In this document: one piece after another, positions 4,555 to 10,606 of the stretch | Position numbering within the stretch: the first letter of the stretch is position 1 | Layout: every line of letters starts with the position of its first letter | Source: Synechococcus sp. AG-679-B05 | Lineage (GTDB): Bacteria; Cyanobacteriota; Cyanobacteriia; PCC-6307; Cyanobiaceae | NCBI GenBank assembly: GCA_003210795.1 | Contig: QCUJ01000002.1 | Location: forward strand, 35,359-99,358 | Length of the DNA: 64,000 nt | Reading direction: 5' to 3' | The notes under the pieces: model-generated | Databases searched by the model: none | Seen by the model: only the letters and a program-made list of their open reading frames with translations | What the model was told of the DNA's origin: nothing | Translations under genes and position numbers: made by a program

Positions 4555-6318
4555 TCAGTGGGCCTCCTGGATCGGTGGGGCGAGGGTGGAACCGATGACC
4601 TCTGCCGGAGCCGTCTGGTTCCGGTCGCGAATGGTGAGGCAAGTGTGCAGCAAACCGTCGTTCACCAGATCGGCATAACGGGTGGCAATGGCCTGGTTGA
4701 CCCGCTGGCAGTCCGCGATGGCCCGATCGCGGGCCCCGGGCACCCGACCGGAGTAGTCGAAGCGGACCACCACCGGAATCGGCAAATCCCGCGCAACGTT
4801 CAGCCCCTTGAAGATCTTCACACCCACATCAAGGTCTGGAGCACCTTCTTCAACCGTGTCGAGATGGGCGAAGTAGGTGAGGTTGCGCAGGTGCACCTCT
4901 TTAAAACCGATACCCACTCCGATGAAGCGCTCGGCATGGCCAGCATCGGGATAGGGCGCCCCGTGCAGCTCCTGCACATAGTCGATCTGAGAGCAATTGT
5001 TCGCAAGCAGACGGGTAATGAACGTCACCATGCCCGGATCCATGGCCGCTGGTGCAGCGGACTCGACCGCTTCAGCGATCTGTGCCATGGCCTGGTCAGC
5101 GGTCATCGTGGCCGTGGCTGCATGGAGCTCCTTGGCACACAGCCAACGGTCTAACACCATTTCACTGTCGCGGGATGGCGGGTGAATGCGTATGGCATCG
5201 GTATCGGTGTCGAGCCCGATCAACAACAGATCAACGGACGCACCACAGCAGAAGCTGTTCTCGACGGCTTCGCGAAAATCGAGCAATCGCTGATGACCGG
5301 CGGACGCAGCCAGTTCGTCGTTGCTCCCGTGGGCAGCACAACCCTGGTGCTCAGGATCGAGGGAGCTGAAGTGGTAAGTGACCACTTTTAAATATCGAGT
5401 CGGTTCCGACGCGGGATTGGGCATGCCCTCGCGGTGCCGGCGATGCTCCGTTTTCACCCAGCGGTTAACCGTGTTTTCCACATCGAACATCGCCCCGGCG
5501 TGGGAGCGACGACGGACCGCACTAAAAGGGATTCGGAGGGCGTAAGCAACGGTGTGAGCCAGACGTCCGTCAGCGCAAGGACTGACGTCCAACAAATGGA
5601 TGCCGCAATCGAGCAGGAACTGTTCGAACTCCGCTGCCGCAGGGCTGCTGGACGCGCCGCCCAGAGGATCGTCCTGGAAAAATCGATCACTGAACAACCG
5701 GTGGCTTTCAAACACACACCAGGCGAACAGAGCTCTCATGTCGAGAGGTCGCACCCAAGCCTTCTGAAGAATGTGATCAGGAAGATCAAAGCCCAGTTCG
5801 GTGCGGATAAGCCGCTGAGCCTGCTCAATGAAATCAGGCTCATGCTGGAGTACGGAAACCTGCTTCAGCAGAGGGACGATGCGATCAAAACGACCTTTGA
5901 CCTGTTCTTCGTAATCCCTCAGGCAAGCATTCGCTCCGGCATTGGTCAGAGGATGCTGCCGGTGCGTGATCGGCAGAGACGACCGACTGAGATTGAACGT
6001 GGCTTTCTGACTGGAGGCTTTGTTGCGGCGGACCCAGCCGGGCTGCGTGCGAGCTGGCTCAGGGCGACGTCCGTCGGCCATGGTTCGTATACGACCACCG
6101 GACACACTGCCCAGAGACAGAGTTGCCGCCTTGCCAGACGTGGTGAGGGCTCGACGCCGCTCGAGGGCGGCACCCCGGGTGCTGACCGCAACGGCAGGTA
6201 TCTCAGTGAGGCTGTCTGCAGGAGCGGCAGCGGTGCGCTCTTGCTGCAACTGACGACGGGTGGGCGCGGTGGGTGCCGAAACACCACCGCGACGGGTCGA
6301 CATGGTGGTGCGCACCAT
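4555..6318 (-). CDS. csoSCA: Carboxysomal carbonic anhydrase CsoSCA (CsoS3)
   Basis: 587 aa; position between csoS2 and csoS4A and CsoSCA-type sequence (CADGRLAHTVAYALRIPFSAVRRRSHAGAMFDVENTVNRWVKTEHRR). Start may instead be Met6 (6303). Confidence 0.92.
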   Translation of the reverse strand: MVRTTMSTRRGGVSAPTAPTRRQLQQERTAAAPADSLTEIPAVAVSTRGAALERRRALTTSGKAATLSLGSVSGGRIRTMADGRRPEPARTQPGWVRRNKASSQKATFNLSRSSLPITHRQHPLTNAGANACLRDYEEQVKGRFDRIVPLLKQVSVLQHEPDFIEQAQRLIRTELGFDLPDHILQKAWVRPLDMRALFAWCVFESHRLFSDRFFQDDPLGGASSSPAAAEFEQFLLDCGIHLLDVSPCADGRLAHTVAYALRIPFSAVRRRSHAGAMFDVENTVNRWVKTEHRRHREGMPNPASEPTRYLKVVTYHFSSLDPEHQGCAAHGSNDELAASAGHQRLLDFREAVENSFCCGASVDLLLIGLDTDTDAIRIHPPSRDSEMVLDRWLCAKELHAATATMTADQAMAQIAEAVESAAPAAMDPGMVTFITRLLANNCSQIDYVQELHGAPYPDAGHAERFIGVGIGFKEVHLRNLTYFAHLDTVEEGAPDLDVGVKIFKGLNVARDLPIPVVVRFDYSGRVPGARDRAIADCQRVNQAIATRYADLVNDGLLHTCLTIRDRNQTAPAEVIGSTLAPPIQEAH

Positions 6319-6325
6319 CAGACGA

Positions 6326-8689
6326 TCAGCCCCTTGCGCCGCCGGAGACGGTGATCAGGGATCCCTTTTCAGTGTTGCCACTCGAACCGGTGACGGGACT
6401 TACGGGCCATTCGGACTCCCCGTTGCGCTTGCGCTCGAAGGAAGACATGGCGCTCATCGGACCGGGACGGGTTGGATTACGACGGCGAGCCGAAGCACCC
6501 TCGGTACCGGTGACATGCTCACCTCGATCCCAGTCATCACCGGTGACCTTGGTGGATGAACCCTCGCCGGTCACCCGGGAAGCGGGGGCATCCTTGGGCT
6601 CGCTGACGACAGCGACGGTGGGCTGAAACTGACGTTGCTGACGGTTTTGGAATTCGCGGTTGTCGAAGCGGAATTGCTCGGTACCGGTCACCTTGCCGCC
6701 AGCCATGTCAAAAGGGCCGGTGATGCGGTTCCCCTGCTCATAGGCCGTCCCGGTCACACCCGAACGAATGTCACGCTGCTGCTGGGCAGCACGGGCTGGG
6801 GAAACGACGCTGAACCGAGTCCATGAAGCATTTTCAGGCGACACACCATGTGTATCGGTGCCAGCTGGTGCATCAGCACCACAGGCTGCTGCCAGTTGAT
6901 CAGCACCGACGTAAGGGGTTCCGGTGACCGCTTCACAAGCTCCACGCTCATCACCTGTCATGACGCCGCCAACGCCGGGTTGAATGCCGGTCATTGCAGC
7001 GGAAGGTGTTCCCGGACGCACGGGTGTGCGCTCACGGATGGCCTGAACCGCTGGGTTTCCACAGTGTTGGCCAGCCTGCTCGAGACCTGCATAGGGAGTG
7101 CCGGTGACGGCCTGGCAGCTGCCGGGCTCATCGCCGGTGACACGCTCAGAGCGGCCAGTCCGGGTACCGCTCACCACCTGATTCTTATTGGTGATGCTGA
7201 AACCGACTTTGGCGGCTTCGGGCTCTGTCTTGGACCCGCAGAATGCGTTGACCTGCTCAGCACTGACGTACTGGTCGCCTGTAACGCGATGACAGGAACC
7301 GAATTCATCGCCTGTCACAGCGGAGGAGCGGCCCACCATCGTGCCGGTGACTCCGGTGCCGGAGAGTGTGGCGGACAGGCCAACCTTGGCCGCAGGTCGG
7401 CCATCGGGTAAGGGGTCGGAACCCAGATATTGATCGCCAGTGAGATTGCGGTTGGCACCTGCTTCATCGCCGGTGACGCTGGAGGAGCGACCCACCATCA
7501 CACCGCTGACTGGACGCCCCTGTTCGGTGAGGCTGTGACCCACCTTGCGCGGCGAAGCAGTACCACCACCGCAGTAGGCAGCGGACTGGTTGGCCGAGAT
7601 GTACTCCGTACCGGTAACGGACTTGCAGGTGCCGGGCTCATCGCCGGTGACCTTCTCGGAGCGCCCCACCTCGTTACCGGTGACGCGATTGCCATGGCTG
7701 GTGGCCGTGACTCGGACCTTGGCTGGGGTTGTTGATTCAGGAGCGGTTTGACAGAAGGTCTGAAAGACCTCGGCACCCAGGTACTCCGTCCCTGTGATGG
7801 AACGGCAGGTGCTCGCCTCATTTCCGGTGGTCTTCACCGAACGGTTGGCCTGCGTGCCGGTGACTGTCTGACCTGAAGTGGTGGTGCTTTCACCAACCTT
7901 CCAATGGGCATCCGCCGCGGCAGCCTGCTTTGCGCCGTGACGATTGGGACCACTGGGACGGGTCACACCAGCGCTTTGCTTGTTGCGGGCCCCAGCCTTG
8001 GCGCGCAGTTCTCGCACCTGCTGGGCGAGTTCGCGGCTGGTGAGGTCAGGGTTGGCCTGGCGAGCCACAGCTGCGGCGCTGGTGGGCTGCTTGCCAGCCG
8101 TTTTGCCATGTTTGGCCATCGCATCACGTCGGGCGAGAACCAGTGCTCGACTGGGGTTCTCGATGGCGCGACGCTTTGGACTGGCAGAGCGTCGCTCGTT
8201 GCGACCGCTCAGCTGCAGCGTCGGGGCAGGACGTGACGACGATTGGGTTGTCTCAGCAGAACGCTTGCCGCCGCAACCGCAATCCTTGAATTCAGCAGCA
8301 ACCGGAGCAGCGGCGGATATCGACTGCTTCGCCACTTCAGATCGATTGCGATCCTTGCTTGTGTCAGCGGTCTTGCCGCGACGAGACAAAGCTTCGCGGC
8401 GCGCTAGAACCAGATCGCGACTGGGGTCACGCTTCTGCTTGACCTGGGAGCGGACAGGCGCAGCGGATGGGGTCAGGCTTGCCGAGCGTCGCGGAGAAAC
8501 AGCGACGGGCGCGGCTTGCACAGCCACATCAACCTGATTGGCATTGGCATTGGTGCGGGTTGCTCTGGAATCAGAGGCGGTCCGCACACGATTGGCACCG
8601 GCACTAACTGCGACAGAAGCTTTCTTACCGGATGTGGTGAGCGCCTTACGGCGTTCAAGTGCGAGTTCGCGACTAGAGAGTCTTGCCAT
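6326..8689 (-). CDS. csoS2: Carboxysome assembly scaffold CsoS2
   Basis: 787 aa with four N-terminal LxxRRxAxxxxGK-type repeats, about six VTGxExGxCxxVTGTxYxxxxQ middle repeats and a C-terminal domain; between rbcS and csoSCA. Confidence 0.95.
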   Translation of the reverse strand: MARLSSRELALERRKALTTSGKKASVAVSAGANRVRTASDSRATRTNANANQVDVAVQAAPVAVSPRRSASLTPSAAPVRSQVKQKRDPSRDLVLARREALSRRGKTADTSKDRNRSEVAKQSISAAAPVAAEFKDCGCGGKRSAETTQSSSRPAPTLQLSGRNERRSASPKRRAIENPSRALVLARRDAMAKHGKTAGKQPTSAAAVARQANPDLTSRELAQQVRELRAKAGARNKQSAGVTRPSGPNRHGAKQAAAADAHWKVGESTTTSGQTVTGTQANRSVKTTGNEASTCRSITGTEYLGAEVFQTFCQTAPESTTPAKVRVTATSHGNRVTGNEVGRSEKVTGDEPGTCKSVTGTEYISANQSAAYCGGGTASPRKVGHSLTEQGRPVSGVMVGRSSSVTGDEAGANRNLTGDQYLGSDPLPDGRPAAKVGLSATLSGTGVTGTMVGRSSAVTGDEFGSCHRVTGDQYVSAEQVNAFCGSKTEPEAAKVGFSITNKNQVVSGTRTGRSERVTGDEPGSCQAVTGTPYAGLEQAGQHCGNPAVQAIRERTPVRPGTPSAAMTGIQPGVGGVMTGDERGACEAVTGTPYVGADQLAAACGADAPAGTDTHGVSPENASWTRFSVVSPARAAQQQRDIRSGVTGTAYEQGNRITGPFDMAGGKVTGTEQFRFDNREFQNRQQRQFQPTVAVVSEPKDAPASRVTGEGSSTKVTGDDWDRGEHVTGTEGASARRRNPTRPGPMSAMSSFERKRNGESEWPVSPVTGSSGNTEKGSLITVSGGARG

Positions 8690-8789: not shown

Positions 8790-9131
8790 TCAGCGGCCTT
8801 CGAAGACCACGAAGCAAGCACCCTGACTTTGGGTGTAGGCGTCGTAACCAACGATGCGGACGTGGTGGTCGGGGTAAGCGCGATGGCAAGCCTCGAGCTC
8901 ACTGACCACAACGTTGAGATCCTTCTCACCGAAGAAAGGCAGCTTCCAATAGGACCAGTAAATGGCCATGGAATTACTGGGATGGACGTGCTCAACGAGC
9001 GGGCTCCAACCCTGGGCAATGATGTACGCGATCTGGTCGTAGATCTCGTCCTGGGTCATCGGCGGAAGAAAGCCGAAGGTCTCCAGGGTGGCGACTGTTT
9101 GATAGTCACCCACGGTGCTCTGGAAAGGCAT
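8790..9131 (-). CDS. rbcS: Ribulose bisphosphate carboxylase small subunit (form IA)
   Basis: 113 aa MPFQSTVGDYQTVATLETFGFLPPMTQDEIYDQIAYIIAQGWSPLVEHV...; downstream of rbcL. Confidence 0.97.
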   Translation of the reverse strand: MPFQSTVGDYQTVATLETFGFLPPMTQDEIYDQIAYIIAQGWSPLVEHVHPSNSMAIYWSYWKLPFFGEKDLNVVVSELEACHRAYPDHHVRIVGYDAYTQSQGACFVVFEGR

Positions 9132-9190: not shown

Positions 9191-10606
9191 TCAGTTCTGA
9201 ACGTCGAGCTTGTCGACGGTGTCGAACTCGAACTTGATCTCCTTCCAGGTCTCGAGAGCGATCGCCAGCTCAGGGCTGTGCTTACCGGCTTCCGTGAGGA
9301 TGTCCCGGCTTTCCTTCTCGATCTCGCGACCGGCATTGCGTGCCTTGACGCAGGCCTCGAGGGCCACACGGTTGGCAGCAGCACCTGCAGCGGAGCCCCA
9401 GGGGTGACCGTGGGTACCACCACCGAACTGCAGCACGGAGTCGTCACCGAAAATGGCGACCAGTGCAGGCATGTGCCAAACGTGGATACCGCCGGAGGCA
9501 ACGGCGAACACGCCAGGCATGGATCCCCAGTCCTGATCGAAGAAGTTGCCGCGGCTGCGATCTTCGGGAACGAAGGATTCGCGCAGCTGGTCGATGTAGC
9601 CGAGGGTGGTCTGACGATCACCTTCCAACTTGCCGACCACGGTGCCGGTGTGGAGCTGGTCACCACCGGACAGACGCAGACACTTGGCGAGAACGCGGAA
9701 GTGGATGCCGTGCTTGGGGTGACGGTCGATCACCGCGTGCATGGCGCGGTGAATGTGCAGGAGCATGCCGTTCTTACGGCACCACTTCGACAGACCGGTG
9801 TTGGCTGTGAAACCACCGGTGATGAAGTCGTGCATGACGATCGGCATTCCGAGTTCCTTGGCGAACTCGGCACGCTCATACATCTCTTCGGGAGTGTTGG
9901 CGGTCACATTGAGGTAGTGACCCTTGCGCTCACCGGTCTCCTGCTCGGACAGCTTGATGGCTTCCGCAACGAATTCGAAGCGGTTCTGCCAACGCTGGAA
10001 GGGCTGGGAGTTGATGTTTTCGTCGTCCTTGGTGAAGTCCAGACCGCCACGCAGGCATTCATAGACAACACGTCCGTAGTTCTTACCGCTCAAACCGAGT
10101 TTCGGTTTGATGGTGCAACCCAGCAGAGGGCGGCCGTACTTGTTCATCCGGTCGCGTTCGACCTGAATGCCGTTCGGCGGGCCGTAGCAGCTCTTGATGA
10201 AGGCCATCGGGAAGCGGATGTCTTCCAGACGGAGGTGGCGGAGAGCCTTGAAGCCAAAAACGTTGCCGACCAGTGAGGTCAGAACGTTGGTGATGGAACC
10301 CTCTTCGAACAAATCGAGGGGGTATGCGATGAACGCATAGAAAGACTCTCTGTCACCAGGGACGTCCTCGATGCGGTAGCAGCGGCCTTTGTAGAAGTCG
10401 AGGTCGGTGAGGAGCTCGGACCAAACAGTGGACCAGGTACCTGTAGAGGATTCAGCAGCCACAGCTGCGGCAACCTCTTCCTTGGGTACACCTTCCTGGC
10501 CGGTGCACTTGAAGCAGGCCAGCAGGTCGGTGTCGAGGGGTACGTAATCAGGAGTCCAGTAAGTGTCTCTGTACTCCTTGACCCCAGCGTCGTACTTCTT
10601 GCTCAT
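9191..10606 (-). CDS. rbcL: Ribulose bisphosphate carboxylase large subunit (form IA)
   Basis: 471 aa; contains [41 protein letters not shown] and [23 protein letters not shown]. Confidence 0.98.

Follow-up and report, generated by a model that had tools for sequence, protein, structure and literature searches.

The cso locus and a CsoS2-like segment in the CsoSCA tail

We analyzed a 64,000-nucleotide stretch of the Synechococcus sp. AG-679-B05 genome (contig QCUJ01000002.1, positions 35,359 to 99,358; hereafter the window), in which the carboxysomal carbonic anhydrase CsoSCA carries, in its N-terminal tail, a peptide homologous to the first N-repeat (N1) of the scaffold protein CsoS2. The genes lie on the minus strand in the order cbbL-cbbS-csoS2-csoSCA (open reading frames from 10606 to 4555), which is the usual place for csoSCA in a cso operon. 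The genes and segments concerned are as follows:

4555..6318, minus strand: csoSCA (csoS3), carboxysome beta-class carbonic anhydrase, 587 amino acids (Pfam)
6326..8689, minus strand: csoS2, carboxysome scaffold, 787 amino acids (Pfam CsoS2_M, E 2.6e-219)
8790..9131, minus strand: cbbS, Rubisco small subunit (alignment to 1SVD)
9191..10606, minus strand: cbbL, form IA Rubisco large subunit (alignment to 1SVD/7SMK)
6130..6177, minus strand: candidate CsoS2-type Rubisco-binding motif in CsoSCA, residues 48-63, RGAALERRRALTTSGK (fits R-x5-RR-x6-GK)
6067..6186, minus strand: CsoSCA residues 45-84, the entire CsoS2-homologous segment (local alignment and hidden Markov model, HMM)
8564..8680, minus strand: CsoS2 residues 4-42, N1 plus trailing segment, likely source of the CsoSCA copy

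CsoSCA begins with a disordered tail (residues 1-121) whose predicted local distance difference test score (pLDDT) is mostly below 50, followed by the N-domain, the catalytic domain and the C-domain, all with Pfam matches far above cut-off (CsoSCA_N 122-214, CsoSCA_cat 231-461, CsoSCA_C 462-578). An earlier sequence-only reading of the window had placed a CsoS2-type N-repeat in this tail, at 6124-6165 on the minus strand (CsoSCA residues 52-65, LERRRALTTSGKAA), as the counterpart of 8618-8659 on the same strand (CsoS2 residues 11-24, LERRKALTTSGKKA). Both locations are correct, and the repeat is present in full: starting four residues further upstream, both proteins fit the published R-x5-RR-x6-GK pattern (R48...K63 in CsoSCA, R7...K22 in CsoS2). 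The local alignment is longer than first noted, pairing CsoSCA residues 45-84 with CsoS2 residues 4-42 over about 40 residues, and includes the trailing segments GRIRTMADGR (CsoSCA) and NRVRTASDSR (CsoS2), which lie beyond the motif letters. The 121-residue tail aligned to CsoS2 with a score of 95, a value reached by none of 5000 shuffled tails (mean 49.1, standard deviation 7.1, maximum 86), and the regular expression of the motif arose by chance in 148 of 200,000 shuffled tails. We compared the tail with the other N-repeats of CsoS2 as well:

8372..8419, minus strand: CsoS2 N-repeat 2 (N2), RDLVLARREALSRRGK (motif match)
8102..8149, minus strand: CsoS2 N-repeat 3 (N3), RALVLARRDAMAKHGK (motif match)
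7988..8035, minus strand: CsoS2 N-repeat 4 (N4), degenerate, RELAQQVRELRAKAGA (sequence)

The scores against N2, N3 and N4 were far lower (41, 37 and 30, respectively), and the match is therefore specific to N1.

At the DNA level, the resemblance claimed by the sequence-only reading held in part. Of 42 bases 28 are identical, but the signal is weak, with the same codon at only four of 12 shared residues and an alignment score equalled or exceeded by nine of 1000 codon shuffles. The DNA is thus alike because the proteins are alike, which indicates an old copy and not a recent one.

Distribution among relatives

We took cso loci from relatives of the same order, yielding 165 CsoSCA N-termini, which represent 35 genera (coded g1-g35; g1 is the genus of the window and g5 a second, sister genus). 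The strict motif was found in the CsoSCA tails of 20 of 21 g1 genomes and 21 of 23 g5 genomes (together 41/44), and in 0/121 tails of the 33 other genera. Conservation in close relatives, on which the sequence-only reading had staked its proposal, is borne out by these counts and by the invariance of the defining residues: R1, L5, R7, R8, A10, L11, G15 and K16 of the 16-mer are the same in 40 CsoSCA copies, among which positions 2, 3, 6 and 9 drift.

A CsoS2-N1 HMM, built from the first 44 residues of CsoS2 in 94 genomes outside g1, g5 and g29, picked out the 41 tails with the motif and no others (E 1.7e-13 to 7.8e-7), with an independent E-value of 7.9e-12 for the window segment. The next best tail was that of G035, a genome in which the motif is deleted (E 0.17), followed by noise, and no CsoSCA tail outside g1 and g5 fell below E 0.5. 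We considered whether other N-repeats had been copied in other genera and dismissed this, as the N2, N3 and N4 profiles gave nothing below E 0.18 outside g1 and g5.

All named motif carriers are labelled Synechococcus, and the window CsoSCA shares 99% identity with its counterparts in Synechococcus sp. AG-679-D13 and AG-673-B04. The motif is absent from CsoSCA in all the named Prochlorococcus, Cyanobium and Vulcanococcus records that we fetched. A motif hidden in Prochlorococcus was rejected too: none occurred in the tails examined, and in 40 further genomes of Prochlorococcus type (g2, g4) the copy profile matched CsoS2-sized frames only, or nothing. Two loci were unusual in other respects. 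In L112 (G192, g29) CsoS2 has 869 amino acids and four strict N-repeats instead of three, and CsoSCA is without a copy. In L179 (G115, g21) the CsoSCA N-domain sits in a 217-amino-acid open frame only, suggestive of a frameshift, an assembly error or a broken gene.

Origin, losses and age of the copy

A tree inferred from concatenated CsoSCA, CbbL and CsoS2, with the motif regions excluded, joined g1 and g5 in one clade (Shimodaira–Hasegawa-like approximate likelihood ratio test, 99.5), with a motif-less g29 genome just outside. Presence and absence of the motif require three changes of state on this tree. Because g1 and g5 form a single clade, this pattern reads most simply as one gain and two losses, provided that the root lies outside that clade. 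In a tree of CsoSCA alone, Prochlorococcus fell within the Synechococcus rows, at the cost of one additional loss; we set it aside, as the g1 and g5 clade was not rejected (approximately unbiased test, p 0.39) and is supported by the concatenated tree.

The losses look secondary. In G035 the copy survives as its trailing half (AKLVQGAIGGGRVRSAGDQR; profile positions 20-41, E 5.3e-5), which indicates a secondary loss, and G055 and G056, nested among carriers, show a clean deletion between RRQLQ and QPAWVRR. Nucleotide identity between the 16-codon stretches of csoS2 N1 and the csoSCA copy was 0.621 within genomes and 0.628 between genomes (permutation p 0.94). Since identity is no higher within genomes than between them, ongoing gene conversion between csoS2 and csoSCA was rejected, and the copy is old.

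Selection on the motif

The motif is under purifying selection. Its ratio of nonsynonymous to synonymous polymorphism (pN/pS) was 0.18 in g1 and 0.24 in g5, near the values for the folded enzyme (0.09 and 0.18) and much lower than in linker 1, which precedes it (0.64 and 0.82).

The Rubisco side of the proposed interaction

Searched against the PDB, a pooled N-repeat profile that included the CsoSCA copies matched the CsoS2 entries as well as 6UEW (E 0.0038), a Rubisco large subunit fused to a CsoS2 N-peptide, in register (SGRDLARARREALSQQGKAAV). By this register, R55 of CsoSCA would be the counterpart of R10 in the CsoS2 peptide. A phmmer search of the PDB with the single 51-amino-acid segment gave only a weak CsoS2 match (E 0.78), and the link required the pooled profile. 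By alignment, the residues that line the peptide site in Halothiobacillus neapolitanus (CbbL Y72 and D99, CbbS Y96) correspond to CbbL F71 and D98 and CbbS Y99 in the window. These partner residues are present throughout the loci: Phe71 in 137/138 and Asp98 in 138/138 CbbL sequences, and Tyr99 in 140/140 CbbS sequences. The position of CbbL Tyr72, described in a passage of Blikstad et al. 2023 (PMC10614612) as conserved in alpha-carboxysome Rubisco, is thus Phe in 137/138 alpha-cyanobacterial loci. The AlphaFold2 model of CsoSCA predicts a helix at residues 47-60, overlapping the motif, in an otherwise disordered tail.

Comparison with known systems

Direct docking of CsoSCA on Rubisco has a precedent. 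Blikstad et al. 2023 (PMC10614612) report experiments establishing that the disordered N-terminus of the H. neapolitanus enzyme (HnCsoSCA) docks on Rubisco where CsoS2 also binds; CsoSCA and CsoS2 compete there, yet CsoSCA enters Rubisco-CsoS2 condensates. The mechanism considered here is therefore sound in principle. The HnCsoSCA peptide PRLDLIEQA (PDB 7SMK/7SNV) likewise lies in the disordered N-terminus of the same enzyme, but its sequence and binding pose are unrelated to those of the CsoS2-type motif, and we did not find it in the CsoSCA tail of the window.

The CsoSCA copy and the CsoS2 N-repeat (PDB 6UEW) share the R-x5-RR-x6-GK pattern, homologous sequence and a disordered context, and are encoded by neighboring genes of one operon. 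When bound, the CsoS2 repeat is helical and sits between two CbbL subunits and a CbbS. They differ in that the copy is part of an enzyme, that E2, L3 and K9 of the 16-mer have drifted, and that each CsoSCA chain carries one copy whereas CsoS2 has three or four. Having several copies per chain characterizes the CsoS2 protein as a whole and need not hold for an individual repeat. CsoSCA is reported to form hexamers (PMC11086599, PMC12646314), and multivalency could come from the hexamer (PMC11086599).

The idea of a CsoS2 motif in CsoSCA is not new, and our results extend it. According to the relevant passages of PMC10614612, no motif is conserved across CsoSCA, 87% of the cyanobacterial sequences contain PTAPx[R/K]R, and "a handful" of Prochlorococcus CsoSCA have the CsoS2 motif, for which an evolutionary relation was suggested. 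That is the same motif in the same protein, but our carriers belong to marine Synechococcus genera (41/44), with none among the Prochlorococcus tails examined; a difference in naming may lie behind this discrepancy. The main text of that paper does not describe near-fixation or a common origin in marine Synechococcus, and the searched passages of later papers and reviews do not take up the CsoS2 motif in CsoSCA. Our analysis adds near-fixation of the motif in two genera of marine Synechococcus, together with a derivation from N1 that spans about 40 residues. A single origin is the simplest account, and the motif is old, has been maintained by selection and has been lost two or more times.

Proposed docking on Rubisco and its alternatives

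Taken together, these data make it very probable that a piece of N1 was copied into the CsoSCA tail, was kept there by purifying selection, and docks the enzyme on the CsoS2 site of Rubisco. The homology, the conservation and the presence of the partner residues were observed directly, with a single origin as the most parsimonious account. We suggest that part of csoS2 (N1 plus trailing residues, ∼40 amino acids) was copied into the adjoining csoSCA in the common ancestor of both marine Synechococcus genera, landing in the disordered N-terminal tail and being retained by purifying selection. Through this tail carbonic anhydrase would then dock on Rubisco in the inter-subunit groove occupied by CsoS2, with the two arginines stacking against or bonding with the aromatic CbbL residue 71 and CbbS Y99. 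We infer that the CsoSCA peptide binds Rubisco, turns helical upon binding and has a role in encapsulation: docking would bring CsoSCA into the Rubisco-CsoS2 condensate and hence into the carboxysome, and a hexamer would display six copies, enough for avidity. Tethering to Rubisco is, judging from sequence, the likeliest function of the copied peptide, and the docking proposal of the sequence-only reading is supported both in this way and by analogy with Halothiobacillus.

Several observations weigh against this account. G035 and G055/G056 are without the motif and have apparently retained the csoSCA gene, so the motif is not strictly essential. The key Halothiobacillus aromatic, CbbL Y72, is Phe here, which preserves the aromatic character and not the Tyr itself. 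The predicted helix at residues 47-60 is of low confidence (pLDDT ∼45). Finally, a PTAP-type element, present in nearly all tails with or without the motif, may be the main recruitment signal. In the window this element is the following:

6247..6276, minus strand: APTAPTRRQL block, CsoSCA residues 15-24, a PTAPx[R/K]R-type element (conservation across tails)

PTAPx[R/K]R, the motif named in PMC10614612 and common to alpha-cyanobacterial CsoSCA, is a separate element with no relation to CsoS2 repeats. The block may be a second candidate Rubisco-binding element, or else the primary one for recruitment. Carried further, this becomes the most serious competing explanation, one we hold to be somewhat improbable: PTAPTRRQL would be what actually signals Rubisco binding or encapsulation throughout the alpha-cyanobacteria, and the N-repeat copy an auxiliary that only raises avidity. 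An xAP-type element occurs in 163/165 tails, under stronger constraint than the N-repeat copy (pN/pS 0.11 in g1 and 0.13 in g5 for the PTAP block), and is retained by the three genomes that have no N-repeat core; PTAPx[R/K]R was itself put forward in PMC10614612 as a possible cyanobacterial motif. However, the PTAP explanation leaves the invariance of R1, L5, R7, R8, A10, L11, G15 and K16 in the copy unaccounted for, and PTAP is itself a candidate, compatible with docking through the copy and not exclusive of it.

Much less probable is that the copied peptide binds a partner other than Rubisco, be it a shell protein, CsoS2 or some other polyanion, or that it persists as a relic that is tolerated. 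HnCsoSCA does interact with the shell protein CsoS1A as well (PMC12646314), and three genomes do without the motif; purifying selection, however, acts on the motif positions that define Rubisco binding, and the shell contacts of CsoS2 are reported to lie in its M and C regions, not in the N-repeats (PMC12646314, PMC12918739). Least credible of all is convergence, in which the short motif arose separately in the CsoSCA tail under selection by the same Rubisco groove: the site is plastic, with HnCsoSCA reaching it through an unrelated motif (PMC10614612) and other genera having lineage-specific basic elements of their own, but a likeness of ∼40 residues that takes in a trailing segment outside the motif, singles out N1 and is picked up at E ∼1e-12 by an HMM from unrelated genera is very hard to reconcile with it.

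Other elements in CsoSCA tails

The tails contain further recurrent elements. One of them lies downstream of the copy in the window:

6025..6045, minus strand: QPGWVRR element, CsoSCA residues 92-98 (tail sequences)

QPGWVRR and FNLSRSSLP (5971-5997, minus strand) recur beside the N-repeat copy in marine Synechococcus CsoSCA tails, and QPAW[VI]RR persists in L056 and L132, from which the copy has been deleted. The g9 tails (L006, L079, L147 and others) share a conserved basic SKVLRQRELAxxxR, unrelated to CsoS2 N-repeats by profile, which is a candidate lineage-specific recruitment motif of that genus. At a similar tail position, L148, L149, L151 and L076 (g14, g34 and part of g8) have an RGT[RA]AR-like element, often followed by AxxQxAR.

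Implications for carboxysome assembly

As regards the recruitment of carbonic anhydrase in alpha-cyanobacteria, the structure published so far comes from a chemoautotroph with a non-conserved motif, and the Cyanobium enzyme that has been studied was truncated to remove the tail. A more speculative extension, which we regard as rather unlikely, is that the marine Synechococcus CsoSCA hexamer would also be a scaffold, its six N-repeats, possibly with six PTAP elements besides, cross-linking Rubisco within the condensate much like CsoS2 and competing with it for sites; enzyme dosage would then shape packing, and Prochlorococcus and freshwater relatives would use other elements. In marine Synechococcus a candidate Rubisco-binding peptide can be recognized by its homology, and genomes that have lost it naturally are available for comparison; the group also documents the spread of a linear motif from one gene to its neighbor through segment duplication.

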